A DNA stretch of 44,504 nucleotides, from positions 1 to 44,504 of IMG/VR virus record IMGVR_UViG_3300046535_000383; one strand, given 5' to 3'. Numbering within the stretch: the first letter of the stretch is position 1; every line of letters starts with the position of its first letter. The notes beneath the pieces are model-generated. The model was not told the DNA's origin, searched no databases, and saw only the letters and a list, made by a program, of their open reading frames with translations. Positions 96 through 18,275 of this stretch are shown here, piece by piece. The position numbers were made by a program, and so were the translations under genes. This DNA comes from a virus.

Positions 96-1280
96 ATGGC
101 ATCTATCCAGAAGCGCGGGCCGCGCAAAGACGGCAGCTACAGTTACCAGCTGCAATGGCGTGACCGCGACACTGGACATCAGGAACGCTGGACGCACGAA
201 ACCGAGGCCAAGGCCGAAGAGTGGAAGCGCCTCATCGAGGCCAACGGCAACTCCCTGGCGCGGGCGGAGCGCGTGGTTGAGGACTCTGCCATGTCCGGGC
301 CTACCGTCGCCGAAGCAATGGAGTCACACATTCGACAGTTGACCGGCGTCACCGAGTACACGGAGAAGCGTTACCACGACGCGGTCCGCCTCCACTTCTC
401 GGGCGAGCTCGGGCAACGCAAAGTCAAAAGCATCGAACAGGACGACGTTGTTGTCTGGGTCAAGTGGATGGAGAAGCGCGGAAAGTCGCCCAAGACAATC
501 AGCGTGCAGCACGGTCTGCTGTCCGCGGCTATGGAGACAGCGGTGCGGCGGCGAATCATCGACCGGAACCCATGCCGGGGCGTGAAGCTACCCAAGGCCG
601 TCCACATCGCTGAAGACGACATCGACATGACCATGGAAGACTTCCATGCCATCAAGGCGAAGATAGACCCGCACTTCCGCCCGTTCATGGACTTCCTGCT
701 GGGTGCGGGCTGCCGGTTCAGCGAGGCCACTGCGTTGAGTGCGCGGGACTTCCACTTGGATGATGAGGTGCCCATTGTGCGGATCACCAAGGCGCACAAG
801 TTGAGGGCTGATGGTGGGCGGTATGTGGGGCCGCCGAAGACGCAGCGCAGCCGCCGGCGGGTATCGCTGGCCCCGTCCACGGTTGAGGCTGTGCGGCCGC
901 TGGTGGAGGCCGCGGGGGATGGGTTCGTGTTCCTCATGAAGGACGGCGGAGACTTCACGCACCAAGCGTTCTATAACCGGGCGTGGCGGAAGGCGCGGAA
1001 GGATGCCGGGGTGAACGATGGCGGCGCTAAGCATGTCAAGGTGCACTCCATTAGGCACCTCCATGCGGCGATTCTCCTGGCTCACGGCATGGACATGTAC
1101 AAGCTGAGCGCAAGAATGGGGCACGCCAGCATCCAAATGACGGTCGATCTGTACGGGTCACTGATGCCGGACGCTCACTTCGAGGGCGCGCAGGTCGCCG
1201 CGAAGGCGCTCGGGTCGATGCCTTTGCCGGTTGAGGCACCGCCCGAGATCGCCGACGTTGAGATCCTGGAAGGCGACTAG
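96..1280 (+). CDS. int: tyrosine-family site-specific integrase
   Basis: 394 aa, the usual length for a phage tyrosine recombinase. It catalyses integration and excision at the attachment sites. The N-terminal 60 residues look like an arm-type DNA-binding domain (GSYSYQLQWRD), followed by a SAM-like core-binding domain at about 70-160 and the catalytic domain at about 175-375. Visible catalytic residues are R207 (AGCRFSEA), K248, the HxxR pair H317/R320, H343 (MGHAS) and the nucleophile Y353 (DLYGS). It is one of only three + strand genes and converges with the HNH gene; the two stop codons share one CTAG. The ATG follows TAGGGTC at short spacing, so translation may be near-leaderless. Its presence marks the phage as temperate. 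Confidence 0.95.
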   Translation: MASIQKRGPRKDGSYSYQLQWRDRDTGHQERWTHETEAKAEEWKRLIEANGNSLARAERVVEDSAMSGPTVAEAMESHIRQLTGVTEYTEKRYHDAVRLHFSGELGQRKVKSIEQDDVVVWVKWMEKRGKSPKTISVQHGLLSAAMETAVRRRIIDRNPCRGVKLPKAVHIAEDDIDMTMEDFHAIKAKIDPHFRPFMDFLLGAGCRFSEATALSARDFHLDDEVPIVRITKAHKLRADGGRYVGPPKTQRSRRRVSLAPSTVEAVRPLVEAAGDGFVFLMKDGGDFTHQAFYNRAWRKARKDAGVNDGGAKHVKVHSIRHLHAAILLAHGMDMYKLSARMGHASIQMTVDLYGSLMPDAHFEGAQVAAKALGSMPLPVEAPPEIADVEILEGD

Positions 1281-4673: not shown

Positions 4674-4719
4674 GCGGGGCTCCTTGTGGGATAGGAAAAG
4701 CCCCGCATGAGCAGGGCTT
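4671..4719 (-). promoter_or_regulatory. two mutually exclusive hairpins at the start of the distal fibre gene
   Basis: Read on the - strand, AGCCCTGC pairs with GCGGGGCT across TCAT and is followed by TTTT, giving a terminator-like hairpin (4699-4719). The same GCGGGGCT arm can instead pair with AGCCCCGC (4672-4680 side), enclosing the AAGGAG site and reaching the ATG. Only one can form at a time, as in an attenuator or start-masking switch. No regulation has been shown. Confidence 0.45.
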
Positions 4720-4777
4720 CATAAATTCGTTTGAGAAAAAGGTTTTAATTTGTGGACGAGTCGGTTAATGTGGGGGC

Positions 4778-5263
4778 ATGGACACGAAATCAGCTCTTGG
4801 CGGCGGCGCCGCGGTTCTTCTGGCATTGGCAGCCCTTGGTGGGCTGGTTGCTACGGCGAACGCGGACATGACGCCCGCCCCGGCCGTGTCCGTGACTTCT
4901 TCGGCGCCAGCCACTACGGCGGCGCCATCACCTACCCCGGAGCCTGTCGTGACCACCGCAACACCCGAACCTGTAGCCACCACTGATCCGGCACCCGCGG
5001 ACACCACAACCACTGCGGCACCTGCCCCCGCACCGGCCCCTGTTGTGGCTGATCCGGCCCCGGCTCCGGCCCCGGTTTACGTGGCACCGGACCCCGCGCC
5101 CGCACCGGTCGTTGCACCTGCCGCCCCCGCCCCGGCGGCCGGACAGTACCAGGAAGTTGATCTCCCGCCCGTCAACGGCATCTCTGGCGCGAAGGCTTCA
5201 ACGCCGGAGGCTGGAGCGCTCGTAAACGCCCCGCCGATGGCAACCGGGACCGGGAAGCACTAG
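4778..5263 (+). CDS. secreted Pro/Ala/Thr-rich protein (moron)
   Basis: 161 aa. A clear signal peptide (residues 1-29: short polar start, hydrophobic AVLLALAALGGLVA, cleavage-like ATANA) precedes about 95 residues of low-complexity Pro/Ala/Thr/Val repeats (APAPAPV, TTTAAP). A short less-repetitive C-terminus follows. It should be exported and extended at or beyond the cell surface. It stands alone on the + strand inside the leftward tail operon, the classic placement of a lysogenic-conversion gene. Its stop shares a CTAG with the stop of the convergent tail gene. No enzyme motif is visible; surface masking or adhesion is only a guess. No convincing promoter was found. Confidence 0.7.
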   Translation: MDTKSALGGGAAVLLALAALGGLVATANADMTPAPAVSVTSSAPATTAAPSPTPEPVVTTATPEPVATTDPAPADTTTTAAPAPAPAPVVADPAPAPAPVYVAPDPAPAPVVAPAAPAPAAGQYQEVDLPPVNGISGAKASTPEAGALVNAPPMATGTGKH

Positions 5264-5952
5264 CGCAGGAACAGGACCGTAGCGTTCAGATTCATCACTG
5301 ACGAGGTCCCGGCCGCGGCCCATGTTCCGGTGTTGCTGGATGCTTTGCCGGTGAGCGGGAACGTGCCGCCACTGAGGCCCGTGAGCTGGGCGACCACTGT
5401 GTTGTTCAGTGACACTTCCGCGCCCGCTGCTGCCGTCGCGTTTGATGCCCAGCCGGGGGAGACGCCGTTGATGTTCGCGCCCAAGTAGGCGCTGTCGGCG
5501 CTGCCCGTGTTGTTCAGCATGTTCATGGTGACGGTCAGGTTCACGAGCGCCTGGGTGTAGCCGGCGGGAACTGGTACGTCGACGCGCAACTTCTCGACGT
5601 TGGCGCCGCTGGTGATCGAGATGTTCTGGACGTCGGAATGGTAGGCGACCGGGACAATGGGCGCGGTGAGCGCTGAGTTGCTGATGGATCCGTTGGGGAT
5701 GGACAGGTTCCCGGTGATGGTGGTGTCCCCGAGTTTCGCGGACCCGTCCAGGGTGGAGAGTGTGACCACTTCGGTGCCGGACGGGTTGAACAGGTGCAGG
5801 CCCGCCTTGTCCGTGGAGAGCCCCTGCCCGCCGTCCTGCCCGGTGGAGGCGTGCAACAGGATGGGCTGGGTGGAGAGTGCCCGGAGCTGGGCTTCGACGG
5901 CTGCGAGGCGCTGCGGCAGGTCGTAGGGCATGCCGAGTTGTGCGTTGACCAT
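5260..5952 (-). CDS. minor tail / fibre protein
   Basis: 230 aa. The N-terminal helix (DLPQRLAAVEAQLRALST) is the short coiled-coil attachment segment common in actinophage fibre proteins. It is followed by a collagen-free beta region (GDTTITGNLSIPNGSISN) and a C-terminal beta-sandwich (VEKLRVDVPVPAGYTQALVNLTVTMNMLNNTGS). This is the layout of trimeric fibre/baseplate proteins that contact the host. The start follows AGGAGCCCGC, the phage's favoured ribosome-binding site. It lies between the tail hub gene and the Pro-rich + strand gene. Confidence 0.7.
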   Translation of the reverse strand: MVNAQLGMPYDLPQRLAAVEAQLRALSTQPILLHASTGQDGGQGLSTDKAGLHLFNPSGTEVVTLSTLDGSAKLGDTTITGNLSIPNGSISNSALTAPIVPVAYHSDVQNISITSGANVEKLRVDVPVPAGYTQALVNLTVTMNMLNNTGSADSAYLGANINGVSPGWASNATAAAGAEVSLNNTVVAQLTGLSGGTFPLTGKASSNTGTWAAAGTSSVMNLNATVLFLR

Positions 5953-5960
5953 GCGGGCTC

Positions 5961-7070
5961 CTAGAACACTGGGGGACGGTTGAGGGTGAGTTGGTAGGTG
6001 GGGACGCCCTCATCCGGGTACGTGACCGTGTACGCGGCGATCCGCCACCACTGCGAGGTCCCTTGCGGGAACCACGGGGACACGGGCGAGTACACCCGGA
6101 CGTCGTCGCCGATCTGGAAGGACCCGAGCGGGAGGGGCGCGTAGTCGATGGGGAGGGTGACGACGGGGACGGACACGGGGCGGCCGAACATTTGGATGTT
6201 GCCGTTCGCGATCGCGTCCAACTGGGTCTGCGAGCTGACTTGGTTGTACTGGTAGACCATTTGCAGGAGCGGGGGTTGCCCGAGTCCGCCCCGGGGCAGT
6301 GGGGAGTCTTTGATGGACTTCGGTTGCACACCGCCGGACCCGGCCCCGACGACGATGGCCTGGTTCCCGGATGCTGCCGCGTTCTTCGGCCACTCCCAGT
6401 GGATGGCTTGGGCGAGGTTGATGGTCGCCCCGGACGTGGTCTGGTCGCGTCCGCAGCGGGGGGCTGCGATGTTGAATGTGTGCGCTGGCGCCCCGTTGGT
6501 GAACACGTCGGTGATGTAGTAGTCGACGCCGCCGGAGCCGGGGGTGATGGCGGCGGTGCAGTCGGCGATGATTTGGGCGGCGGTGACGTACTGGTTGGCG
6601 TTGTAGGAGGGTGTGATGTTTGGTGGGGGCGAGTTCAGTCCGAGCCGGGGGGTGAGCCTGATGTTCGCGCCGGGCTGGTTCTGCGTGTCAGTGACAACGT
6701 CGGAGAGTAGTTGGGCGGGGCTGATGGAGACGTTGTACGCCTTGGTGGCGGTGACCTGCGTGAAGTAGCTGGTCAACCCTTTCCCGGCGATGGTGAGGAC
6801 GGGCTCGCCCGAGTTCATGGTGGTGTTCCATGCGATCCCGGAGTATTGGATGGATTCGGCCCGGTTGGAGAACACGACTTTGAAGGGGGTGCCGTCCATG
6901 GCGAGGATGATTTGTGCTTGTTGGGAGGCGAGGGCGTCGGTCAGGTCGATTTTGAGGGTGAACTCGCCGGCGTCGTTCAACCTGACCGAGTAGGAGGGGG
7001 ACATGGCGTGCAGGTGGGTGATCAACGTGTTGGTGTTCAGGTCCCAGGCGGTGATGGTGGGGCGTACCAT
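5961..7070 (-). CDS. tail hub/minor tail protein, ReqiPepy6 Gp37-like
   Basis: 369 aa. It begins with the family's typical pattern (ITAWDLNTNTLITHLHAM...SVRLNDAGEFTLKIDL). It continues through an IAGKGLTSYFTQV region and ends with a C-terminal domain containing FQIGDDVRVY and YPDEGVPTYQLTL. This is the Siphovirus Gp37-like family, which forms the baseplate hub under the distal tail protein. Gene order (Dit, then hub, then fibres) supports the role. The start follows AAAGGC at eight bases; the upstream Dit stop is 12 bases away. Confidence 0.8.
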   Translation of the reverse strand: MVRPTITAWDLNTNTLITHLHAMSPSYSVRLNDAGEFTLKIDLTDALASQQAQIILAMDGTPFKVVFSNRAESIQYSGIAWNTTMNSGEPVLTIAGKGLTSYFTQVTATKAYNVSISPAQLLSDVVTDTQNQPGANIRLTPRLGLNSPPPNITPSYNANQYVTAAQIIADCTAAITPGSGGVDYYITDVFTNGAPAHTFNIAAPRCGRDQTTSGATINLAQAIHWEWPKNAAASGNQAIVVGAGSGGVQPKSIKDSPLPRGGLGQPPLLQMVYQYNQVSSQTQLDAIANGNIQMFGRPVSVPVVTLPIDYAPLPLGSFQIGDDVRVYSPVSPWFPQGTSQWWRIAAYTVTYPDEGVPTYQLTLNRPPVF

Positions 7071-7082
7071 GCTGGGGCCTTT

Positions 7083-8033
7083 CTAGGCGACGGAGTAGGC
7101 GGGGAGCGCGTACCCGGTGAGCTGGGATGTGACGGCGGCGGAGTCGGATGAGCCGTAGCCGATGGTGTTGTTGCCGGGTGCGAGGCCGAAGAATGTGGTG
7201 GTGATGTCGACGGTGTTGTTGCGGTTGGCGCCGTTGAGTGTGACGGTCCCGGACTGGCAGTCGACGGCGAGGGTGTCGCCGGTGCCGATGACGGTGTTGA
7301 GTTTGATTTGTTGCCCGGTGGTTTGGTTGGTGATGACCGGGTAGGAGACGGGGCCGGTGATGGTGAAGAACGGGGAGGTCGGGTACGCGCCGGTGTTGTT
7401 GAGTTGGAAGGACCCGCCCGTGGACGCGCCGAAGGTCAGGTCGAACGTGGCCGGGAACGTGGCCCCACTGGTGGGGTTGGGGAGCCCGCATGATGCGCTG
7501 ATGATGGTGTTGTCGTAGAGCAAACCGTCAGGGCAGGACCATTCGGTGGTGATGTCCACCCGGCCGTACTGGAAGTCGGTGCTGATGGGGGCGTTGAACC
7601 GGACGGGGCGGCCGAAGAAGATGAGCGGGTTGGCCCGGTTGGGGAGTTGGACCATGCCGGAGTAGATGGGCTTCGTCAAACCTGCCCCAGATTTTTGCCG
7701 GAGGTAGTCTCCGGAGGTCATGCAGATGGTGGCAGGGTCGATGACGTTCTGATGCGCCGCCGTCACACTGGCGAGGGCCGCTTCGGTGCTCGCCGCCGTC
7801 TTGGTGATCTGGTAAGTGATGCCGATGGTGCGCTCACCAACAAAGTTCAGGCCCGGGAGCGCCCCGTCCTTCTGGCCCCGGTTCACGTTGCCCTGCCGGA
7901 TGGGGGGCAGGTCACGGAGGCCGCTGATGCTGATCAAACCCACATCAGTCCCGGCGCCGAACGTGGATGAGGTGGAGGACACGTACACCTGGAACTGCTG
8001 GAGCGTGACGGCTGCGAATACGACGGCGGGCAA
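7083..8033 (-). CDS. distal tail protein (Dit-like)
   Basis: 316 aa. It has the N-terminal tail-ring features (FQVYVSSTSSTFGAGTDVGLISISGLRDLPPIR), a central W-S-C-P-D-G region and a C-terminal beta-sandwich (NNTIGYGSSDSAAVTS). It would form the ring that joins the tail tube to the hub. The start is a TTG (8033) preceded by a perfect AGGAGG at five bases, which decides the start despite the rare codon. It lies upstream of the hub gene and downstream of the SGNH island. Confidence 0.75.
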   Translation of the reverse strand: MPAVVFAAVTLQQFQVYVSSTSSTFGAGTDVGLISISGLRDLPPIRQGNVNRGQKDGALPGLNFVGERTIGITYQITKTAASTEAALASVTAAHQNVIDPATICMTSGDYLRQKSGAGLTKPIYSGMVQLPNRANPLIFFGRPVRFNAPISTDFQYGRVDITTEWSCPDGLLYDNTIISASCGLPNPTSGATFPATFDLTFGASTGGSFQLNNTGAYPTSPFFTITGPVSYPVITNQTTGQQIKLNTVIGTGDTLAVDCQSGTVTLNGANRNNTVDITTTFFGLAPGNNTIGYGSSDSAAVTSQLTGYALPAYSVA

Positions 8034-8064
8034 GGCAGCCTCCTATGTTGTTGTGGGTACGACA

Positions 8065-8092
8065 AAGGCCCCCGCCAAGTGGCGAGGGCCTT
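8065..8092 (-). terminator. hairpin before the Dit gene, terminator-like
   Basis: AAGGCCCCCGCCA pairs with TGGCGAGGGCCTT (one mismatch, tiny loop); on the - strand a short CTTTG follows. It lies between the + strand SGNH gene and the leftward Dit gene and could limit read-through from 9-10 kb or stabilise the Dit mRNA. The T run is weak. Confidence 0.5.
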
Positions 8093-8185
8093 ACGGGTGA
8101 AGCAATATTCAGTTGGGGAACTTAACCGGTCTTATTCGTCCCTTATCATGAGAGCAATCACGTCACGTTTTCTCTTGGGGGATCT

Positions 8186-8956
8186 ATGTCTTCTCGACGC
8201 TCTCGCAGTCGTCGTCGCATCGCCGGTATTAGTGCCATGGTTGCGCTCGTCCTGTTCACCGCTGGCGTTACTGCGCTGGCCTTGGGCGCTGCAAAGCCGG
8301 CACCTACGGCCGTGGTGACTGCCGCTTCCACGCCGACGCCGATCAAAAAGGAGTTTGTCCCGCATCTTTTGGTCATCGGTGACTCCTTCACCGGAGGCAG
8401 CAAGGAGGGCGGTGACGGCGCGAAGGGCTGGGCAGCGCTTGTCCAGTCCAGCTACACCAAGAGCGGTGCCAGGTTGCAGCTTGATCTGCTGGGCCGGGGC
8501 GGTGCCGGGTATGCGACCAAGGGTCAGATCAATGAGACGTTCATTGAGTCGTACAAGGCGAACCCTTTCGCCAATGAGGACGTCATGGTCGTGTTCGGCG
8601 GCCTGAATGACACTGAACGTTCCGCGGACGATGTCGGCACTGCGGCTTCATTGCTTTATGCGGAGATGCGGAAGAACTCTCCGAAGGCACCGCTGATCGT
8701 TGTCGGCCCGGCATGGCCGAACAGTGTGCCCGTCCCCAACATCTACAAGGTCCGTGACGCGATCAAGGCCGCTGCCCTGGCTGCCGGTGCAACGTTTATT
8801 GATCCGATCGAGCAGGGCTGGTTCAGTGGTGATCGTCAGGCCATGATCGGTTCGGATAAGACGCACCCGACCGATGCCGGACACAAATTCATGGCGGACC
8901 AGCTCGCCCCCGTCATCCTCGCGGAAGTCAAAAAGGCAGCAGCCGCGAACTCCTGA
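8186..8956 (+). CDS. secreted SGNH/GDSL-type hydrolase (moron)
   Basis: 256 aa. An Arg-rich N-terminus (SRRSRSRRR) and hydrophobic segment (ISAMVALVLFTAGVTALALG) form a signal peptide or anchor, followed by an Ala/Thr/Pro linker and an SGNH hydrolase domain from about residue 58. Block residues are visible: S67 in GDSF, Gly in GRGGAGY, N141 in GGLND, and D224/H227 in SDKTHPTDAGH. The family removes acyl or acetyl esters from lipids or glycans; export points to the cell envelope as substrate. It is on the + strand within the leftward tail operon, with its own GGGGGA ribosome-binding site and a strong terminator after it. It could alter the receptor during lysogeny, which is inference. Confidence 0.85.
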   Translation: MSSRRSRSRRRIAGISAMVALVLFTAGVTALALGAAKPAPTAVVTAASTPTPIKKEFVPHLLVIGDSFTGGSKEGGDGAKGWAALVQSSYTKSGARLQLDLLGRGGAGYATKGQINETFIESYKANPFANEDVMVVFGGLNDTERSADDVGTAASLLYAEMRKNSPKAPLIVVGPAWPNSVPVPNIYKVRDAIKAAALAAGATFIDPIEQGWFSGDRQAMIGSDKTHPTDAGHKFMADQLAPVILAEVKKAAAANS

Positions 8957-8965
8957 CAAAACCCA

Positions 8966-8998
8966 GGAAGCCCCCACTCACCTAGAGTGGGGGCTTCC
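8966..8998. terminator. bidirectional terminator between convergent SGNH genes
   Basis: A perfect 14-bp stem (GGAAGCCCCCACTC with GAGTGGGGGCTTCC) and a 5-base loop lie 10 bases past the SGNH moron stop and 5 bases past the tail-SGNH stop. T runs on either side are short (CTGTTT on +, GGGTTTT on -), but the stem is very stable. Confidence 0.75.
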
Positions 8999-9003
8999 GC
9001 TGT

Positions 9004-10599
9004 TTAGGCGTCCATGAGGTTCTGCGAGATGAGCCCCGCGGCGAATCGCCCAAGCTCGTCGTGGCCGGCTGCGCTCGGGTGGGTGCCGTCTGACGAGACA
9101 AGCAGGTCAGAGTTGCCGATACCGGTTGTCGCACCGACTTTACCCGTACCTGTCCACCAGCAGGGGCCCACCTGCTTCACTGCCACACCGGACGCGAAAG
9201 CGTTTGTCATGGCCTTGACGGTCAGCGTGTAGGGTCCAGTCCCGGAGACTGCGGTGACCACCTTGCGCTCCCAGTTCGTCCCGTCCTTAATGTCGATTGT
9301 CGCCCCTTGTGGGATGAAACCGGCGACGCTCAGGGAAGTGGCCGCGGCGGCGACGGAAGCCGAGAGGGTCGTGGCCGGCGCGACCGAACCAACCGGCAGT
9401 TCAAGGACATCCACGAATAGGACGGGCTGCGCGGTGGTGTTCGTCGCGGCGACGGCGGCTTTGATCGCGTCCCTGGCCTGCAAGAGCGAGTTGGGGAACG
9501 TTTCGACCCCGTTCCTCCACCAGGGAGAGAACACAATCTGCGGTACGCCCGGCAGTGCGGCTTGTACCGCCTGGTAGCAGGCGGTTGCTTCAGCCTGGAT
9601 CTGTGCTGCGGTGTAGGTGGCCTGGTCGTTGATTCCGCCCGCCCAGATGACGATCTGCGGGTTTTGTGAGGTCACGTCATTGACGAGCCGGTCCCGGAAC
9701 TTCACGCGCCCTCCCGAGCCGGGGTTCAGGTAGCCAGTTCCGCCGACACCTGACGCCCACACGTCATCCCACCCGAGGGAGAGCCCGAGTTTTTGGGACC
9801 ATGAGCCGATGGCGCTGTATGTGGACCCGGTACCTTCGGTGAAGGAGTCGCCCACGACAATGGCCCGGGGTCCACGGATGGGGACAGGGTTCACGCTGTC
9901 GGTGCCGCCTACACGGACCCCGCCAAACTTGACGTTGGAGGTTTCCAGGGTGATCCTGCGGACGGCGCGTGCGCTGAAGGTGATCGGAAGGTAATACAGG
10001 TTACCGTCGTTCGGCAGGGTAGTCGCCGCCGAGGTCACGAGTTGACCGTCTACGCGGACCCTGACCAGGCCGCCGTTGCCGGAGAGGAAAAACTCCAGCG
10101 CGGCACCGTCAAACAGAAACGACACGTTATAGGGGGCGATGGTGTTGGTTGTGGTGAGCGACGACGGTACGACCCAGTTGTTATTAGGGTAGGCGGTGCC
10201 CGCGGCGGCGAACGAACCGGCGCCCGTGTACGTGAACCGGTCCGTGAGGACCTGGGTTGCCGTGCCGGAACCGGACACGGACGGGAAGAACGCAGCCCCG
10301 CTAATTGATGATGCGGTTGCGGCTGCCCCAATGGTGGGCGGCGTCGCCATGAGGACATCGACCGTGTTCGCGGCCGGGATGGCACGGCGCGACCCGATAG
10401 GGGAGCGTGGCGCATACGTTGTCTTCAACGTTTTTTCATCCGGCGCCTGGTAGCCCAGAGAGTTCCATGCAGTGGCGCCGTCACCAATCTTGCGTTTCTT
10501 GGTGTCCGTCTCCCACGCCGGTTCCCCGAGGGCGAGGACCGGGTTTGCTGCCGTCCAGTTGGCGGCGGTGTCCCTGCGGTACTGAATCCTGTTAGCCAT
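9004..10599 (-). CDS. tail protein with fibre attachment domain and SGNH hydrolase domain
   Basis: 531 aa. Residues 4-50 (IQYRRDTAANW...GDGATAWNSLGY) are the short N-terminal domain seen in phage fibres and Mtd-type tropism proteins. A beta-rich region spans about 80-235. An SGNH hydrolase begins at 245 with S252 in GDSF, N324 in GGIND, and D504/H507 in SDGTHPSAAGH. A separate beta module (about 404-477, ending TLTVKAMTNAFASGVAV) is inserted inside the hydrolase between the N and D/H blocks. It would sit on the virion and deacylate a surface glycan or lipid during adsorption. The stop of the upstream gene is immediately adjacent. Confidence 0.85.
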   Translation of the reverse strand: MANRIQYRRDTAANWTAANPVLALGEPAWETDTKKRKIGDGATAWNSLGYQAPDEKTLKTTYAPRSPIGSRRAIPAANTVDVLMATPPTIGAAATASSISGAAFFPSVSGSGTATQVLTDRFTYTGAGSFAAAGTAYPNNNWVVPSSLTTTNTIAPYNVSFLFDGAALEFFLSGNGGLVRVRVDGQLVTSAATTLPNDGNLYYLPITFSARAVRRITLETSNVKFGGVRVGGTDSVNPVPIRGPRAIVVGDSFTEGTGSTYSAIGSWSQKLGLSLGWDDVWASGVGGTGYLNPGSGGRVKFRDRLVNDVTSQNPQIVIWAGGINDQATYTAAQIQAEATACYQAVQAALPGVPQIVFSPWWRNGVETFPNSLLQARDAIKAAVAATNTTAQPVLFVDVLELPVGSVAPATTLSASVAAAATSLSVAGFIPQGATIDIKDGTNWERKVVTAVSGTGPYTLTVKAMTNAFASGVAVKQVGPCWWTGTGKVGATTGIGNSDLLVSSDGTHPSAAGHDELGRFAAGLISQNLMDA

Positions 10600-11037
10600 T
10601 TATGCAGCGCTCCCGCCGTCGAAGTTGAATGTTCCGGTGTAAGTTGACGTTGCGCTTCCGCCGTCAAGGGTGGTTGGTGGCACGTCCGTCTTTAGGGCAT
10701 AAGTGGCAGATAGTTGAGCTGCGGTGGCGCTGCCGGGGGTGCTGATGTAGGCGGCCACGGAGGCGTCCTGCATGACGGCGTTGAGCGTCCACGCGTACGT
10801 GTGCGCCGGGTCCGTGATCACCACAGCCGAGTTCGTGGCCTGGTTGAACTGCGGGAAAACACCCTGCGAACCAGAGTTCAGGATGTTCCCCGGCAGCGCG
10901 TTCCCGAACGGGTCAGTGATAGCCAGCGGGGTCGCATAGGCCGTGTCGGTGGTCGCGTAGACCTGAAACGAGACGTTCTTGACCGGCTTGTTACCGATGG
11001 GGTCCCAAGCGACCGCCGCAGCGAATGTGAAGGTCAC
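10600..11037 (-). CDS. small minor tail protein
   Basis: 145 aa from a GTG at 11037, preceded by AAAGGGG at seven bases. An upstream in-frame ATG lies inside the tape-measure gene and is rejected. The N-terminus (FAAAVAWDPIGNKPVKNVSFQVYATTDTAYATPL) resembles the collar-like start of fibre proteins. The C-terminus is a Thr/Ser/Gly-rich beta region (GGSATSTYTGTFNFDGGSAA). It lies between the tape measure and the SGNH tail protein and may connect tail and fibre. Function is inferred from position. Confidence 0.65.
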   Translation of the reverse strand: MTFTFAAAVAWDPIGNKPVKNVSFQVYATTDTAYATPLAITDPFGNALPGNILNSGSQGVFPQFNQATNSAVVITDPAHTYAWTLNAVMQDASVAAYISTPGSATAAQLSATYALKTDVPPTTLDGGSATSTYTGTFNFDGGSAA

Positions 11038-11056
11038 GAGGGACCCCTTTCGGTTA

Positions 11057-14000
11057 TTAGAGGGTGCGCAAAGCCCAGCCCACCTCGGAGGCGATGTGCT
11101 CTCCGGTGGCGTTGGTTTGCGCGTTGATGGTGATGCTCGTGTTCGATGCGGGGGCGCCCGCCGTGGCGGGCTGGTTTTGCTGGCCCAGCGCGTACCCGAT
11201 AGCAAACCGTTTCTGCATCGTCTGCCCCAGGTTCAAACCAGCGTTCGACGCCTTCAACCAAGGCAGGTTCATCCGTGTGGACGGCTCGTTGTTGATGAAC
11301 TCCCCGGAACGGACCTTCAACGGCCGCCCATCCACCATGGCGAGGATGTTGTCCACGTTCGGTGCCGCCGGCGGCGTGCCGGGGATGACCCCGCCACCCG
11401 CGAAACCCATGATCGAGGCGACCGCGCCGCCCGTGAAACCGCCCGCCATGCCGCCCGTGTACTTGCTGCTGTAGGCGTTACCGGATGCGTACTGGTTGGC
11501 CTGCACCATGGCGTTACCCGCGGCGTGCTGGAGCGCGTCAACGGATGCTTGCGCGGCGGCGATCTGGTCGGCCCCGTACAGGTGAACCGTGACGCCCACA
11601 TCCTTCGGGATGTTGTCGATGGCGATCTTCGTGTCCGCGGCCTTCTGGCGGGCGTAGTCGTCCATCCACGTCTTGATGTCCGTGCCCGGCGGGATACCAA
11701 GCACGGAGCGGGCCAGGTCGTCGGCCTTGCCGCCAGTGATACCCATGCCGTGGGCTGAGGTCACCAGGTTGTCGTAGGTTTGCTGGAGCGCGCCCTGCAC
11801 CTTCTGCTGGGCGTCCACACCCGGCCCGGCAACAGACTTCGCCATGTCCAAACCGGAGCGCATGACAGCCTCGAACTTGTCGTTCAACGCCTGCCCCGAC
11901 TCCGAGGTCAGGTTGAAGTCAGTGCCCGTAGCGTTGAGGGCATCCGAGACGTCCACGTTCGACTTCACAAGCTGGTCCACGGCGCCCTTCGCGTCCGTGA
12001 TCGTCTTGTTGAACTTCGACGTCGCGTCGCGGCTGCTCAGCGTTGCCATGCCCGTCGACAGCATCCCGTCAAGGACCTTTTGCAAGTCGGTGGCGAGACC
12101 ATCAGCCGATACCCCGGCGTTGTCCAGTGCCGTGCCAAGGTCCTGCTGCTTCTTCTGGGCGTCCTGCGCTGCCTTCGATGAGTCCGCGGTGGCCTGTGCG
12201 GCTTTCGCCATCGCCGGCGGGATCTTACCCCCAGCCAGTTGCACGAGCGCGTCACCACTGATCGACGCCACACCCGAATCGTGAGCCAACTGGATGAGCT
12301 GGTCACGGTAGGCGGGCATCGCCTCGAGGGCTTTCTCCGCTGAGCTACCGTTGTCCTCGAAGGACTTGGCGAGGCGCTTGAACGACTCGGCGGCCTGGTC
12401 CGAGTGCCCGCTGGCGACCATCTGGGACAGGGCGGTGCCCATGTCCTTGAACCGGTCCTCCACCTTCGTAATCCCGGCCTCGCCGAGCAGTAGGGTCTTC
12501 GACAAGCCATCGAAGGACTGGGTGAACTGGTCGATCCCGTCCTTATGGGCGAGACGCTTCACAGCGTCGGCCATGTTGTTCACGTCGGCCGGGGCGTGGG
12601 AGAACAGGTTCGTGTCCCACTTGGTGAAGACCGCGTCAATGTCCTTGGTGCTGTCAGCCTGATCGGACAGGCCGCCGAGGGCGTTGCTGATCTGGTCGAT
12701 ACTGACGTCGGCCTTGGAGTTCGTCATCAGGGCGAGGCCCTCAGCGAGGGCTGCGACAGCCATGGTTGCTGCCTTGAACCTGCCCGGCCATGTGGACAGC
12801 CCGCCGACAACCTTCTCGAGTGCGGCGCCGGACTGTATAGCCCCGGCCTGTAGCTGCACCCATGAGGCGATCTGCTTGGCGACGGACGCGGCGACCGTGT
12901 ACGCCATCTTGCCCATCTCTACAGTCGTGGTGACCCCGGCAATGACCAGTTTGGTGGTGTACGCGCCGATCGCCAGCGCGACGGCCCCGCCGAGGACCCC
13001 GGCCGCGGTGAGCAGGACCGGGTTGCCTTCCTCGAAACCGTGCACGAGGTCCTTGAAGCCGGAGACGGCGCCCTTCGCAGAGGGGATGAGCTTGGTGCCG
13101 AGCTCAATGCCAAGGTTGGAAACCATCTCCTTGGTCTGGTCCATTTGGACGGACAGGGTGTCCTGCATATCGGCCCAGGTGGAGATGTCCTGCCCGGTCT
13201 TCTTGCCCGCCTCACCGATGGCGTCGATGTTGGCGATGAACTCGTGGCTGTCGTTCATCATCAGCATGGTCGCGGCACGGGCCGCGGTGACGTTGCCGAA
13301 CACGTCGCGCATGGCGGCGTTGTACGTTTCGACGGCCGGCTTACCCGACTTGAGGGAGTCATTGACGCCCTCATTGGCTTTGTAGAGCCCGGCCAACTGG
13401 AGCCCCAGGGCGCCTGCGGTGCCGCCGTAGCCCTTCACGGCCTTGGTGTACGCGCCAATGGTTTCGGAGCCGTCCAGGAGGCCGCGGGAGAGCCCCGCAA
13501 GGTCGGACGGCATCTGCCCGATAATGGTTTGCATCGCCTTGGTGGCGTTGGCGTTCTCCTTCATGGTCGACTGGAGGACCATGCCGTCCGGGCCCATGTG
13601 CTTGAGGATGGCGTCGGATACGAGTTGCAGGGAACCGGACAAGCCCCGCTCGCCGAGGTGCTGGGCGAGGTCGGTGGTGTCGATGCCCATCTGGGACATC
13701 GCTGCGGATGCGAGGTTGTTTGGGCGGACGAGGGACTGGATCAGGTTGGCGAGGTTCTGGGAGGACTGCTGCGCGGACTGCCCGTGCTGCGTCATGGTGG
13801 CGATGGCACCGCCAACCTGGTCGAAGCTGATCTTCGCGGTGGAGGCGATGGGCACGACGGCGGCCATGGAGTTGGCGAAGTCCGTCATGGTGGTCTTGGC
13901 TGCACCGGAGGCGGCGACAAGCATGTTGGTGACCCGGACGCTGGAGTCCGTGGCGTTCGCTGCCGTGTCCATCTTGTAGCCGTAGTCCAACAGGACGTCG

Positions 14001-14881
14001 GTGACAGCCTGCGCCATGATCGACAGGCCGACGTTCTCATCCTTGGCACCCTGCGCGGAAGCTTTCAGGGCGGCGAGGCCGGCCGCGCCACGGTAGCCAG
14101 CCTTCTCCATGATGTACATGCCCTCGGACATCTGCTCAGCCGAGGTGCCCGTGGCCGTGGAGATCTCCAGGATGCCTTTGCGGACGCCTTCCAGTGCGCT
14201 CATTTGCTCACCACCGGCGGTGACGAGGACCATCGTGGACTTCTCGAATTTCGCGGCCATCTCGGTGGCGCCCACGGCGATGGCGGCCCCGGCGAGCAGG
14301 GACACGGCCGTGACCTTGCCAGCGATGCCCATGACGGACTTCATGGCTGCACTGCTGCGCCCCGCTGCGACTTCCTGTGCGGCGGCGGACTTCTCGGCTG
14401 CAACGGCTTGAAGGTCTGCGGCCTTGGATTGCGCTGCGGCGGAGGCTGTTGCGGCTGCTGCGGCCTTGTCCTGCGCCTGGGCTTCCCGGGCTGCGGCCAG
14501 TTCGGCCGCGTTGGCGGCACGGGCGGCTGATGCTGCCTGCTTGTCGTAGGCGGCGGACTGTTCGGCGGTCATGGCCCCGAGGGATTCGGCCTGCATCTGC
14601 GTGACCTTGGCTTGCGCTGCGGTGGCGCGTTCTTCGGCGGCGATCCGCTTGTCTGTGGCGACGGTGGCGCCCTTCGCCGCGGTTTCGGCGGCGAGGACCT
14701 GCTGTTCTGAGGCGCGGGTCGCTTCGGCGGCGGCGGTACGGGCGGCGGCGGCTTCCTTCTGCGCGGCTTTCTCCGTCTCGCTGGCGGTGGCCTTGGCTGC
14801 GGCAACCACCTTGCCCTGCTCACTGAGGAACTGGGCAGCGTTGGCCCGGATCTCCATGACGACGGGGGGAAGGAACGACAT
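11057..14881 (-). CDS. tape measure protein
   Basis: 1274 aa, the longest gene here. Residues 1-185 are an Ala/Lys/Glu-rich helical region (AAAKATASETEKAAQKEAAAA). A TP901-type phage tail tape-measure core follows (MAAKFEKSTMVLVTAGGE, GILEISTATGTSAEQMSEGMYIMEKAGYRG, ATMTQHGQSAQQSSQNLANL), then hydrophobic segments at about 630-720 and a Gly/Ala-rich C-terminus. The tape measure sets tail length; at roughly 1.5 angstrom per residue it predicts a tail near 190 nm. It is downstream of the tail chaperones. The start follows GGAGG. Confidence 0.95.
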   Translation of the reverse strand: MSFLPPVVMEIRANAAQFLSEQGKVVAAAKATASETEKAAQKEAAAARTAAAEATRASEQQVLAAETAAKGATVATDKRIAAEERATAAQAKVTQMQAESLGAMTAEQSAAYDKQAASAARAANAAELAAAREAQAQDKAAAAATASAAAQSKAADLQAVAAEKSAAAQEVAAGRSSAAMKSVMGIAGKVTAVSLLAGAAIAVGATEMAAKFEKSTMVLVTAGGEQMSALEGVRKGILEISTATGTSAEQMSEGMYIMEKAGYRGAAGLAALKASAQGAKDENVGLSIMAQAVTDVLLDYGYKMDTAANATDSSVRVTNMLVAASGAAKTTMTDFANSMAAVVPIASTAKISFDQVGGAIATMTQHGQSAQQSSQNLANLIQSLVRPNNLASAAMSQMGIDTTDLAQHLGERGLSGSLQLVSDAILKHMGPDGMVLQSTMKENANATKAMQTIIGQMPSDLAGLSRGLLDGSETIGAYTKAVKGYGGTAGALGLQLAGLYKANEGVNDSLKSGKPAVETYNAAMRDVFGNVTAARAATMLMMNDSHEFIANIDAIGEAGKKTGQDISTWADMQDTLSVQMDQTKEMVSNLGIELGTKLIPSAKGAVSGFKDLVHGFEEGNPVLLTAAGVLGGAVALAIGAYTTKLVIAGVTTTVEMGKMAYTVAASVAKQIASWVQLQAGAIQSGAALEKVVGGLSTWPGRFKAATMAVAALAEGLALMTNSKADVSIDQISNALGGLSDQADSTKDIDAVFTKWDTNLFSHAPADVNNMADAVKRLAHKDGIDQFTQSFDGLSKTLLLGEAGITKVEDRFKDMGTALSQMVASGHSDQAAESFKRLAKSFEDNGSSAEKALEAMPAYRDQLIQLAHDSGVASISGDALVQLAGGKIPPAMAKAAQATADSSKAAQDAQKKQQDLGTALDNAGVSADGLATDLQKVLDGMLSTGMATLSSRDATSKFNKTITDAKGAVDQLVKSNVDVSDALNATGTDFNLTSESGQALNDKFEAVMRSGLDMAKSVAGPGVDAQQKVQGALQQTYDNLVTSAHGMGITGGKADDLARSVLGIPPGTDIKTWMDDYARQKAADTKIAIDNIPKDVGVTVHLYGADQIAAAQASVDALQHAAGNAMVQANQYASGNAYSSKYTGGMAGGFTGGAVASIMGFAGGGVIPGTPPAAPNVDNILAMVDGRPLKVRSGEFINNEPSTRMNLPWLKASNAGLNLGQTMQKRFAIGYALGQQNQPATAGAPASNTSITINAQTNATGEHIASEVGWALRTL

Positions 14882-14899
14882 GGTGGCCTCCGGGGCTGG

Positions 14900-15322
14900 T
14901 TAGTATGTGATGAATCGCGCCCAGTTGGCGGTGGCGATGGCGCCCATTTCTGCGCGGAGCACTTTCGCGGCTGGCCCGAAGTATGGGTAGGCACCGGTGG
15001 GGGCGAGGCCGAGTTCTACCCGGCGCCCGTACTTCATGGTTGGCCCGACTTGGGCGGAGTAGACGCCCATGGCGTAGTGGTTGAGGGAGTCGGCCATGAT
15101 GGACCGGCGCAGGTTGCCGGTGACGACGTTGGGTTTGTTCCCGCCGACATGGGGCTGGCCCTTTTTGTGGGAGCCCTCAAAGTTGTTCTGCGCGTCCCTG
15201 ATCAGCGCCATGGAGGCGACACGGACGTTTTCCCGGGCTGCGAGGTCCGCCTGTACACCGGCGCGGGTGAACGCCTTCTCCATGGCCTCCAGGCCCGTCC
15301 AGATGGCTTCGTAACCGGCCAT
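14900..15322 (-). CDS. HK97 gp10-like tail completion protein
   Basis: 140 aa. The region VVTGNLRRSIMADSL, the VGPTMKYGRRVELG stretch and the PYFGPAAKVLRAEMG end match the HK97 gp10-like pattern (TGxLRxSI, VGP, PFLxPA). The family joins head and tail or completes the tail. Here it lies between the tail chaperones and the tape measure rather than with the connectors, which is unusual. The start is 10 bases after the frameshifted chaperone stop, with AGGAC upstream. Confidence 0.7.
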   Translation of the reverse strand: MAGYEAIWTGLEAMEKAFTRAGVQADLAARENVRVASMALIRDAQNNFEGSHKKGQPHVGGNKPNVVTGNLRRSIMADSLNHYAMGVYSAQVGPTMKYGRRVELGLAPTGAYPYFGPAAKVLRAEMGAIATANWARFITY

Positions 15323-15331
15323 GGACGGGTC

Positions 15332-15580
15332 CTAACTGATCGAAGGGGTGAACTCTTCAGTGCCGAGCGGGGCGGATGGCTTCGGGGTGTGCATGTCCTC
15401 GATGCGGAGCAGCATCTCCGTCACAGCGGCGGGCGTGTCCATGTACTCGCCCCACGTGCCGCCGTACACCCGGTGCCATTGGCGGAACTTCAGGAGTTCG
15501 AGGTCTTCCGGGTGGAGGTCCGACGCTTGGCGTTCGCCCCGGATTGCGTCTTCGAGTTTCCGGGCGCGCCAGTAAAAGAC
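15332..15580 (-). CDS. tail assembly chaperone, -1 frameshift extension (GT-like)
   Basis: 82 codons in the frame one base behind the upstream chaperone, open from a -1 shift at about 15580-15586. Translation reads FYWRARKLEDAIRGE, then KFRQWHRVYGGTW and GEYMDTPAAVTEM. This is the pattern of the second tail chaperone of lambda-like phages (gpGT). It has no start codon or ribosome-binding site of its own. The fused product would be 142 + 82 = 224 aa. Gene order (major tail protein, G, GT, tape measure) supports it strongly. Confidence 0.8.
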   Translation of the reverse strand, partial: VFYWRARKLEDAIRGERQASDLHPEDLELLKFRQWHRVYGGTWGEYMDTPAAVTEMLLRIEDMHTPKPSAPLGTEEFTPSIS

Positions 15581-16005
15581 CCCTTGTCCTCCAGGGTTTC
15601 CTCGCTGATCTCGAAGCCGTCGGCAACTTCGGGGTTGCCCTGCTTCTGCACCTCAGCGTTGAGGACGTCCGTGATGTGGGAAGGGACGTCGAGGAGGTCC
15701 TCCCACGTGGCGGGGAGGGGAATGTTCAGGGACCATGACTTGAGCCAACCCCACGTGGTCGCGTACTGGAGCTGCTCCAGGGTTTCGGCTTCGTACTGGG
15801 TAAGCCGGACGTCAGGCCCGTTCAGGGACGGATTCTCTTCAACCTCGCCGGCCGGGTTGGTGACGGTGCGGGCGGATGCGATCTTGGCGAGCAGGTCATC
15901 CGCACGGTACAGGAGCGCCTTCGCGGGGATACGGCGGCGGGGGGTGAGCTCGTCGCGGTCGAACAGTTCGGCGGTGCCGCCGGGGATTTCAATGGTGCGG
16001 GACAT
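15490..16005 (-). CDS. tail assembly chaperone (G-like)
   Basis: 171 aa. The protein is acidic and helical in its first 140 residues (LTPRRRIPAKALLYRADDLLAKI, YEAETLEQLQYATTWGWLKSW) and ends with a Ser/Thr/Arg tail after the shift site (K141-G142). It binds the tape measure during tail assembly and is not in the virion in known relatives. It is directly downstream of the major tail protein and starts after GGAG. Confidence 0.8.
   Translation of the reverse strand: MSRTIEIPGGTAELFDRDELTPRRRIPAKALLYRADDLLAKIASARTVTNPAGEVEENPSLNGPDVRLTQYEAETLEQLQYATTWGWLKSWSLNIPLPATWEDLLDVPSHITDVLNAEVQKQGNPEVADGFEISEETLEDKGSFTGAPGNSKTQSGANAKRRTSTRKTSNS
15574..15586 (-). promoter_or_regulatory. programmed -1 frameshift site
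   Basis: On the - strand the sequence is CAAGGGGTCTTTT. In the chaperone frame it is read AAG GGG TCT TTT, and the extension is in the -1 frame (GTC TTT). GGG can slip back onto GGG and TTT onto TTT, but there is no textbook heptamer. The shift is required by the open downstream frame. Confidence 0.65.
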
Positions 16006-16073
16006 GGGGTTACTCCGTGGGATAGTGTGCCGGGCACCCGGTGAAGGGCGCCCGGCAACGGTTTAGTGCAGGG

Positions 16074-17375
16074 CTAGAACGGGGTGGCGGAGGTGGTGAC
16101 GATCTTCGCCTGAATGGGGGACAGCTTCCCGTCCAGGGCGTCGGTCGCGTTCATGAGCGCCTTGAAGTTGCTGGCGATGGTCGCGTACGACGTGTTCGAA
16201 CCAGCCGGGGCGGCCGAGTCATACGCGATCTTCGAGCACTGGAGCACGAGCGGGTGCGCCGAATCCGCCTGCTGGTTACACGACAGGGAGATCGCGGGCT
16301 GCACGTTCGTGAGCAGGTTCGTCAAGTCAGCGTCAGCCAAGCCCTGGTAGATCGCGTTCAACGAACCAGTGACCGACAGGGGGCCGGCGAAGATCGCGGA
16401 CGGCGCGTTCGTACCATTCAGCGTGCCCACCGGGGTGACCGTGCGCTTCAAGTCCAGGGAGAAGTCCGAGTACCGGTCAGTGAACGCACCCGCGACAGTG
16501 ATACCCGCGGATGAGGGCGGGAACGGGGGCAGGGTGGACGGGGTGTTCGTCGGCGCGGTGAGCGTCTTACCGGGCAACCCCATCCATGAGGCGTCAACGG
16601 TGACCTGGTTGTCGGTTTTGAACGTGAACTTCAGGTCGGAGATGATCATGCCGGGGATCTGGATGACGTTCCCGTCGAGCTGGTACAGGAATCCGGTGTA
16701 GGAGTTGGGCTGGCCTGCGTGGGTGGCGTCGGAGGCGTTGCCGAGGGAGAGTGCGTGGATGTTACCGGCGGTCGTGGGCGGGGCCTGTGTGGCGAGGGAG
16801 ACGCCCGTGTCCGTGTAGCTGGTGCCGGTGGTGACCTTCGCAACGAGGACGTTCTCAGCGCCGGCGGCGGTGCCGCGGTAGACGTTGTAGCCGGTCGCGC
16901 CGGTCGTCGCCGTCCATGAGAGCGGCTGGGAGGACGTAGCGCCGGTGAGGGTGGCGGTGACTTCGTTGGAGCCAATGCCTTCGCCGCCCGCCGCGGTCGC
17001 GGTGACCTTCCAGAACGTGGCGCCGGCGGGGAGTGTGCCTCCCGTGGTCGCTGTCGCGCCGAGGGTCAGGGTGGGGGCCGTGAGGGGGGTGACCGTGTCC
17101 GTGCCGCCGAGGATCGCGACAAGGTGCGGGAAGATCGAGTCCGCGTAAATCATCGTCTTGTACGAAAGCTCGTCGTGGCGCATACCCTGCGTCTGTCCGT
17201 AGTCGGTGCCCATGTAGCCGCGGAGGGCCTGGTCAACGAGGGGCGTGATCTTGGGTTCCCATTTGGGGGAGTCCACGGGCACCCACATGGTGGGGGCTGC
17301 TACGGCGACACCGTACGTGGTTTCTTTGGCGTAGCCGAACCACTGCTGGCTACCCGGCCGGGGGGTGGTTGTCAT
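16074..17375 (-). CDS. major tail (tube) protein with Ig/Fn3-like insertion
   Basis: 433 aa. Residues 1-95 and about 200-433 carry the tube domain (PGSQQWFGYAKETTYGVAVAAPTMWVPV near the start, YTGFLYQLDGNVIQIPGMI in the middle). An Ig/Fn3-like domain sits between them at about 97-195 (TTGGTLPAGATFWKVTATA...ATGYNVYRG). The tube domain polymerises to form the tail. Such surface domains can bind glycans, but that is not shown here. The start follows AAGGAC. It is upstream of the chaperones. Confidence 0.85.
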   Translation of the reverse strand: MTTTPRPGSQQWFGYAKETTYGVAVAAPTMWVPVDSPKWEPKITPLVDQALRGYMGTDYGQTQGMRHDELSYKTMIYADSIFPHLVAILGGTDTVTPLTAPTLTLGATATTGGTLPAGATFWKVTATAAGGEGIGSNEVTATLTGATSSQPLSWTATTGATGYNVYRGTAAGAENVLVAKVTTGTSYTDTGVSLATQAPPTTAGNIHALSLGNASDATHAGQPNSYTGFLYQLDGNVIQIPGMIISDLKFTFKTDNQVTVDASWMGLPGKTLTAPTNTPSTLPPFPPSSAGITVAGAFTDRYSDFSLDLKRTVTPVGTLNGTNAPSAIFAGPLSVTGSLNAIYQGLADADLTNLLTNVQPAISLSCNQQADSAHPLVLQCSKIAYDSAAPAGSNTSYATIASNFKALMNATDALDGKLSPIQAKIVTTSATPF

Positions 17376-17391
17376 GTCGGGGGTCCTTCAG

Positions 17392-17724
17392 TTAGGCGGT
17401 GGGTTCGGCCGGGGCGGGTGCGCCTTCGGCGGTCATGGTGTCGGGTGCCGGGTCGGCGGGTGCGTCGGAGCGGAACTCGATGACGGGCTCAGGGGCGGGG
17501 ATCGGGGAGCCGTCCGCGTTGATGGGCTGCGGCTCCGGCTCGACTTCGGTGAGTTCCGGGTGGTCGTACGGCTCGTCCGTGCGGACAGCGTCCCCGGGGC
17601 TGGCTTCGAGGGTGGCACCGTACGGCGGCTCGTTGCCGGCATCGGTCAGGAGTGCGGCGTTGACGCCCTGTGAGAGCCCGGCCAGTACCCGCGGGTACGC
17701 TCCGGTGAAGTGGTATTCGGTCAT
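17392..17724 (-). CDS. hypothetical acidic Pro-rich protein of the connector region
   Basis: 110 aa. The N-terminus (YHFTGAYPRVLAGLSQGVNA) looks folded. The rest is rich in Pro, Glu, Asp and Ala (ELTEVEPEPQPINADGSPIP) and probably disordered. It begins after TAGGAG with the CCGCC-ATG spacing typical of this phage and sits between the basic repeat protein and the tail tube gene. Its strong negative charge is opposite to the neighbouring basic protein; a pairing is speculation. Confidence 0.7.
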   Translation of the reverse strand: MTEYHFTGAYPRVLAGLSQGVNAALLTDAGNEPPYGATLEASPGDAVRTDEPYDHPELTEVEPEPQPINADGSPIPAPEPVIEFRSDAPADPAPDTMTAEGAPAPAEPTA

Positions 17725-17735
17725 GGCGGGTTCTC

Positions 17736-18275
17736 CTAGAACATGGACAGGTAGGACGCGGACGAAATGGGCGCGGCCTTCGGTTTCGGTGGGCGGACAT
17801 GCCCGCGGTGGTGCGTGGACGGCTTGCGGCCGAGGAAGCGGCGGTGCTGCCCGGGTTTGACGTGCCGGCCGTGGTATTTGCGGCCCTTGAACTTGCGGTG
17901 CAGACCCTTCGGCATCACGCGCTTGTGCAGGGACTTCTTCCGGCCCTTGAACTTGCGGTGATGGAAGGCGCGTTTGCCGTGGCGGCCCTTCAAGGCTTTG
18001 CGGATCGCGTGGCCGCGGGCGGCGCGGGGGCCGACATGTTTCTTCCGTCCAAGGAAGCGGCGGTGACGGCCGGTCTTGCTGGTGCGCGCCTTCGTCGTGG
18101 TGACCCCGGCGAGGCGGCGGTGCGCGGCGGCAGCCGCAGTACTGGTCTTGCCACGAATACCCGCGTAACGGCGGTGATAGTGGCGCCGGACCTGCGTTTT
18201 ACGGCGGACGTGCTGGTGGGTGACCGTCCTGCCGGTACGGCCGCGGCGGGCATGGCTGGAACGGACCCTAACCAT
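17736..18275 (-). CDS. very basic Arg/Lys/His-rich repeat protein
   Basis: 179 aa, with about half the residues Arg, Lys, His or Gly and only a few acidic ones. The octamer H-R-[RK]-F-[LK]-G-R-K occurs four times (HRRFLGRK twice, HRKFKGRK twice). At DNA level a 20-base block recurs 60 bases apart (17881 and 17941) and a 14-base block 219 bases apart. The start overlaps the upstream connector stop as TGATG, so it is translated with the head-tail genes. The composition suggests nucleic-acid binding, as in histone-H1-like or protamine-like proteins, but no domain is recognised. Possible roles are a virion DNA-condensing or portal-exit protein, both inferred. Confidence 0.75.
   Translation of the reverse strand: MVRVRSSHARRGRTGRTVTHQHVRRKTQVRRHYHRRYAGIRGKTSTAAAAAHRRLAGVTTTKARTSKTGRHRRFLGRKKHVGPRAARGHAIRKALKGRHGKRAFHHRKFKGRKKSLHKRVMPKGLHRKFKGRKYHGRHVKPGQHRRFLGRKPSTHHRGHVRPPKPKAAPISSASYLSMF

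Follow-up and report, generated by a model that had tools for sequence, protein, structure and literature searches.

In temperate Gram-negative phages, O-antigen conversion genes of the gtr/oac type lie next to tailspike genes. The gtrABC clusters are mobile conversion genes (PMC2629481), and according to a reference in PMC9558356 the oac gene of Sf6 adjoins the integrase gene. In Kapi1 lysogens, the O-antigen, which serves as the Kapi1 receptor, is modified (PMC8787464). Two further groups of proteins bring the SGNH fold to surface glycans: SGNH tail proteins of Klebsiella prophages are active esterases (PMC13123978), and the extracytoplasmic SGNH domain of AT3-SGNH proteins acts on glycan acyl groups (PMC9558356). 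Lysogens also express accessory prophage genes of the CarolAnn 43/44 and Sbash 30/31 type, some of which have a promoter of their own (PMC6426606). Here, we describe a phage locus in which an exported SGNH protein faces a tail protein with an SGNH domain, an arrangement of which we found no description, of either the pair or its slot, in the library of open-access papers that we searched.

The window, meaning the whole 44.5-kb virus record that was analyzed, encodes a siphovirus-type phage of soil bacteria, whose minus strand carries the genes for terminase, portal, tape measure, Dit, and minor tail proteins. Its tyrosine integrase indicates that the phage is temperate. The closest GenBank DNA belongs to Arthrobacter phages, which match the first part of the tail gene, here called T, at 81–83% along some 270 bp; the facing gene, S, lies 7 kb from the integrase (Table 1).

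Table 1. Positions of S, T, and associated features in the window
Feature	Position	Strand	Description
Tyrosine integrase	96–1280	+	Same strand as S
Stable hairpin with short T-run	8065–8092	-	Between the putative S promoter and Dit (start 8033)
Conserved 26-bp element CAGTTGGGGAACTTAACCGGTCTTAT	8110–8135	+	Upstream of S; once in the window
-10-like TATCAT	8144–8149	+	From promoter scan and element consensus
Exchangeable block S+T	8146–10694		Not alignable to L079; flanks 79–80.5% identical
S, exported SGNH protein	8186–8956	+	256 aa; solitary plus-strand gene within the minus-strand tail operon
S, hydrophobic export/anchor segment	8228–8284	+	Residues 15–33, followed by a Pro/Ala/Thr linker
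S, SGNH domain	8372–8887	+	Residues 63–234; Pfam Lipase_GDSL_2, E=4e-20
Perfect 14-bp stem, 5-nt loop	8966–8998		Between S and T; -33.5 kcal/mol, z=-6
T, tail protein	9004–10599	-	531 aa; Mtd_N, central beta-rich region, SGNH
T, SGNH domain	9016–9858	-	Residues 248–528
T, Mtd_N domain	10471–10587	-	Residues 5–43; Pfam E=6e-14

The initial annotation had described a secreted SGNH protein converging on a minus-strand tail protein with its own SGNH domain, and both gene assignments, coordinates included, proved correct: S67, N141, and D224/H227 of S and S252, N324, and D504/H507 of T fall at the conserved SGNH columns. S carries the superfamily residues as G65-D66-S67 (the block I GDS), G106/G108 (block II), N141-D142 (block III), and D224/H227 (the block V DxxH), and its AlphaFold model (pLDDT 82 overall and above 90 over most of the SGNH domain) has a confident SGNH fold, with SGNH esterases as the best PDB matches. 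The block I–V residues are likewise present in T, which matches Lipase_GDSL_2 over residues 248–401 (E=3e-14) and has, between N324 and D504, an insert of about 70 aa that is also found in contig L038. Matches to PHROG tail fibre and tail spike families, together with Mtd_N, mark T as a receptor-binding tail protein; its structure model (pLDDT 48) was discarded as low confidence. That S is exported is supported, but "secreted" is better replaced by probably membrane-tethered, given the hydrophobic segment and linker and the lipoboxes in the S proteins of TripleJ, BrayBeast, and L026. Across 18 dereplicated pairs (below), an N-terminal export/anchor segment is present in 18/18 S proteins and 0/18 T proteins. 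We rejected a role for S as a lysis enzyme of the lysin B type, as pair phages such as DirtyBoi, Clown, and Eyes encode a separate lysin B and S lies opposite the late genes. The window holds a second solitary plus-strand gene within the tail operon (4778–5263), whose 161-aa product has a signal-peptide-like start followed by a Pro/Ala/Thr-rich chain and matches no Pfam or PHROG family; a minus-strand terminator-like hairpin at about 4690–4720 precedes the next minus-strand gene, like the arrangement beside S. A different short exported Pro-rich gene, gp33, adjoins S in the Gordonia phage DirtyBoi.

The stem between S and T, which had been called a bidirectional terminator, is perfect and real, but only half of its bidirectionality is supported: the U-run is good on the minus strand, for the tail mRNA (TGGGTTTTGT), and weak on the plus strand, on the S side (GCTGTTTAGG), and a terminator scan lists the stem on the minus strand only. 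With this stem and the hairpin closer to Dit, late transcription would meet two stops ahead of Dit, and expression of Dit and the genes downstream would need read-through, antitermination, or a promoter of their own.

To examine how widely the arrangement recurs, we sought S homologues by sequence alone and removed near-duplicates, which left 18 pairs from Arthrobacter, Gordonia, and Microbacterium phages; in 18/18 of these loci, the S-type exported SGNH gene faces or lies just opposite an SGNH tail gene. In 15 GenBank phages of Arthrobacter (Popper, Bauer, Richie, TripleJ, Kukla, AbbyDaisy, and BrayBeast), Gordonia (DirtyBoi, Eyes, Matteo, Budski, Clown, Squiddly, and Belphegor), and Microbacterium (Footloose), PF13472 occurs at exactly two places per genome, adjacent and convergent, one being the small exported SGNH protein and the other the tail SGNH protein. 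Every S-type match in IMG/VR also has an opposite-strand SGNH tail gene, and the two are directly convergent except in L028, where lysis genes intervene, and in L031, where a Wzy-like plus-strand gene does; the contigs compared include some that are fragments. A query of viral contigs with the single S sequence found no relative, and a scan of genome contigs, which returned mostly host SGNH proteins, was left out of the evidence. A chromosomal lipoprotein-type SGNH gene related to S is present in Microlunatus flavus (L041, 7983–8720), with neighbors that, judged by eye only, resemble exopolysaccharide synthesis genes; a gene of this type is a possible host source of the S family.

Across the 18 pairs, the S sequences make up a single family, with a median of 62 bits between members, whereas the tail proteins split into six clusters at 60 bits, with a median of 20 bits. 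S-T partners are no more alike than non-partners. In the window itself, the SGNH domains of S and T are 31% identical over 158 aa (E=4e-12), a hint of local duplication that we rejected: the SGNH domain of T resembles S proteins in general and not only the S of the window, and partners elsewhere are unrelated. With S a single family and the tails in six unrelated clusters, the pair is not a local duplication. Sequence co-variation between S and T was not detected across the pairs (Mantel rho 0.14, P=0.11), which tells somewhat against a functional pairing, as tight substrate matching might predict some.

Comparison of related backbones shows that S and T are exchanged between phages as a block. 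L079, the closest backbone relative of the window (80.5% over 5768–8145 and 79% over 10695–18499, with no match between), differs from it exactly over S and T and has a beta-helix tail and no S. TripleJ and Kukla have flanks 89% and 80% identical and no similarity over the pair, and Bauer and AbbyDaisy similarly combine similar flanks with unrelated pairs. Conversely, Matteo, Budski, and DirtyBoi, which have otherwise different backbones and come from different genera, share a pair that is 93–98.6% identical; for the pair region of Matteo and Budski versus DirtyBoi, a breakpoint lies inside the tail gene. Co-exchange may, however, partly reflect adjacency at a recombination-prone junction.

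Immediately upstream of S is a promoter-like match, the only one in 7 kb. The 26-bp element found there is identical in L023, with the same -35/-10 spacing, before an S that is only 37% identical to that of the window, and similar, imperfect copies lie upstream of the S unit in Popper, TripleJ, BrayBeast, AbbyDaisy, Bauer, Richie, and L026. Searches with an exact 21-mer and a relaxed form returned 11 and 43 viral contigs, respectively, and in about 30 distinct contigs the element adjoins and faces a tail gene; relaxed matches that had no facing tail gene or no flanking consensus were set aside as chance or unrelated (L082, L083, L087, L089, L095, L103, L108, L110, and L111). The consensus is GGGAACWWAACCGGTCTTAT-N-GGCCC-Y-TAnnnT, with TAnnnT 8–10 nt after CTT in 17/33 elements (about 0.5 expected) and, in 10 of those 17, an ATG 6–8 nt after TAnnnT, as in leaderless actinobacterial mRNAs. 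The element is present in 20/23 genomes searched, as a single copy in 19 of the 20 and with one extra two-mismatch site in TripleJ; two S-containing loci, BrayBeast and L024, have degenerate forms. We interpret it as the promoter for the gene opposite the tail gene. One 58-kb contig (IMGVR_UViG_3300013105_000027) contains the element twice (L088 and L096); each copy faces a separate tail gene, and neither slot contains a gene. In L101 (element at 9910–9927, minus strand), a single tail gene is faced by two exported SGNH proteins in tandem, 235 and 244 aa long, of which the second has a lipobox. S has the makeup of a moron, an extra gene among phage genes, with its own promoter-like element and -10, a terminator stem (weak U-run on the plus side), and absence from L079.

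The same slot takes other genes in related phages. AT3-SGNH fusions (PF01757 and PF19040) occupy it in L071, L076, and L094, and an AT3 protein by itself in L092. L069 has a hexapeptide acetyltransferase there, L086 an alpha/beta hydrolase, and L074 a Wzy_C-like protein (a weak match, below cut-off). The tails facing the slot include SGNH, BNR_4, beta-helix, and pectate-lyase-like types. By their domains, the AT3-SGNH, AT3, Wzy-like, and hexapeptide acetyltransferase occupants are predicted surface-glycan-modifying enzyme types, and they suggest that the general logic of the slot is the rewriting of surface glycans. Replacement is visible on a single Gordonia backbone, which has S with an SGNH tail in Budski, AT3 with a different, non-SGNH tail in L058, L060, and L062, a polysaccharide-deacetylase tail and no S- or AT3-type gene in L061, and an SGNH tail with an unrelated 193-aa gene in L057 and L059. 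In L058, L060, and L062 (for example, at 13296–14468, minus strand, in L060), the AT3 gene overlaps tail-to-tail with a tail gene whose 733-aa product matches no Pfam domain, which suggests that this tail also recognizes an acylatable glycan.

To assess whether S is matched to the tail, we compared element-bearing loci with an identifiable tail, a comparison that controls for the neighbor always being a tail gene. An SGNH tail is present in 13/13 loci with S and 8/19 loci without it (P=0.0006, or P=0.0016 with the inclusion of L074, whose SGNH gene lies elsewhere; tail classes were assigned after the pattern had been seen). Within the slot, S is found only with SGNH tails; the association runs one way, since SGNH tails also occur without S (L057/L059, L073, L085, L099, and L106). 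These counts bear on the view that S is an accessory gene, for nutrition or envelope maintenance, that has hitch-hiked into an insertion or recombination hotspot and shares the SGNH fold with the tail by coincidence. Both gene classes are common and modular, and the slot also houses genes for small membrane proteins and others without an assigned role (L057, L070, and L093), as this view would have it; against it stand the restriction of S to SGNH tails behind the same promoter-like element in the same slot and the replacement and transfer of pairs together across backbones, and we regard it as very improbable. The inference in the initial annotation that the two enzymes work as a pair is strongly supported by the recurrence, the co-exchange as a unit, and a slot and promoter-like element common to other surface-glycan-modifying genes; its proposal that S could remove the same group on the lysogen is a candidate mechanism.

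The setting of S is that of a conversion gene: it is in a temperate phage, outside the late operon, on the opposite strand, and behind its own promoter-like element. An integrase is present in 14/15 GenBank pair phages, S often adjoins the repressor or integrase, and in the pair phages with an annotated repressor (Popper, TripleJ, DirtyBoi, and Clown) the repressor is on the S strand. In Gordonia phages, there is positional precedent for lysogenic expression near the repressor and integrase (PMC6426606). The 7 kb that separate S from the integrase in the window count against this reading. The exception is Belphegor, in whose genome we detected the pair and no recognizable integrase or repressor, so S could have a role in lytic infection. 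S might then act in the lytic cycle by stripping receptors from the producing cell and its debris and so preventing re-adsorption of progeny, with lysogeny incidental. Hemagglutinin esterases of animal viruses have such a receptor-destroying role. These SGNH enzymes (PMC9487903) provide an analogue, and the presence of the element in phages of varied backbones implies that repressor control is not required. The integrase in all other GenBank pair phages examined and the placement of S opposite the late genes, with a promoter-like element of its own and often beside the repressor or integrase, argue the other way, and we consider a purely lytic role quite unlikely.

A further question is the chemistry of S. 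As the extracytoplasmic half of an O-acyltransferase, S could add acyl groups delivered by a phage or host AT3 to the surface glycan and so mask the receptor; the outcome, a changed receptor and exclusion, would be the same and the chemistry opposite. In Kukla and L028, an AT3 gene (PF01757) on the S strand immediately precedes S, AT3-SGNH fusions take the same slot in the three sister loci named above, and a soluble SGNH protein working with a separate AT3 has a precedent in WecH with PatB, as cited in PMC9558356. Most S genes, however, have no AT3 neighbor, and S matches Lipase_GDSL_2 and neither PF01757 nor PF19040. We favor hydrolysis by S over acyl transfer because its canonical block II and III residues and the fold matches of its model are esterase-like; SaOatA, a transferase, nonetheless has a typical oxyanion hole (PMC9487903), so such features are compatible with transferases, and the AT3 neighbors keep a transferase version of S alive. 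Overall, we judge acyl transfer unlikely, though it deserves to be taken seriously.

We therefore prefer, as a probable but far from secure reading of these sequences and predicted structures, a model in which S and T form an interchangeable pair, with S in a receptor-modification (lysogenic-conversion) slot whose occupant is matched to the enzyme on the tail. T would be the receptor-binding tail protein, its SGNH domain acting during adsorption on an acyl ester, probably O-acetyl, of a host surface glycan. S would be transcribed from a promoter of its own, on the strand opposite the late genes, and after export would be anchored at the cell surface through its N-terminal segment; there, its SGNH domain would change how the producing cell's glycan of this kind is acylated. 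Most likely, S would remove the ester that T needs, a receptor destruction in cis; because the group altered would be of the kind that T uses, the lysogen would lose its receptor, neither its own phage nor others sharing that tail would adsorb to it, and released progeny would not be lost to sibling cells or debris. Where the tail is of another kind, the slot behind the putative promoter takes other glycan-modifying genes. Within this model, we infer promoter activity, expression in the lysogen, the shared substrate, the direction of the reaction, and the block to superinfection. Arthrobacter and Microbacterium hosts lack mycolates. Mycolic-type lipids, which had been suggested for testing with both enzymes, are consequently an unlikely common substrate, as the S family is also found in phages of these hosts.

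More broadly, and tentatively, temperate actinophages may have in common a dedicated, promoter-tagged cargo slot opposite the receptor-binding tail gene, whose occupant is matched to the chemistry of the tail, so that the prophage rewrites the receptor with a surface-anchored counter-enzyme that is exchanged together with the tail, forming a modular self/non-self code for superinfection. To our knowledge, the receptors of Arthrobacter phages and of most Gordonia phages are largely unknown. If the facing gene reads out the target of the tail, genome sequence alone would indicate receptor chemistry, with SGNH pointing to an acyl ester, AT3 to acylation, and Wzy-like proteins to polymerization, and the 26-bp element would serve as a search tag for such genes.

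Among described systems, CarolAnn 43/44 and Sbash 30/31, which belong to Gordonia and Mycobacterium prophage defence, resemble S as accessory genes near the integrase or repressor; the CarolAnn system acts after adsorption, whereas the S slot would exert its effect at the receptor. The domain content of T agrees with that of the tail proteins G7C gp63.1 and the Klebsiella prophage tail fibres, in which an SGNH esterase acts on surface polysaccharide O-acetyl groups (PMC13123978); the accounts examined concern the virion enzyme only and describe no facing exported SGNH partner. The AT3-SGNH O-acyltransferases OafB and OatA have counterparts in the same slot of sister phages, and S differs from them in having no AT3 domain. 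The slot is best read as analogous to gtrABC of P22 and epsilon34 and oac of Sf6: in each case, a temperate phage carries a surface-glycan-modifying gene near integrase or tail genes that is mobile between phage types, and as gtrABC and oac conversion changes the polysaccharide that the tail recognizes, the same logic is proposed for S. Unlike these systems, S belongs to phages of Gram-positive actinobacteria. It is convergent with the tail gene and encodes an exported SGNH protein whose fold class is also that of the enzyme on the tail, and its slot has a shared 26-bp promoter-like element. If the model is correct, S and its slot would be the equivalent, in Gram-positive phages, of serotype conversion by gtr/oac and would offer a simple way to predict the phages that a given lysogen excludes.
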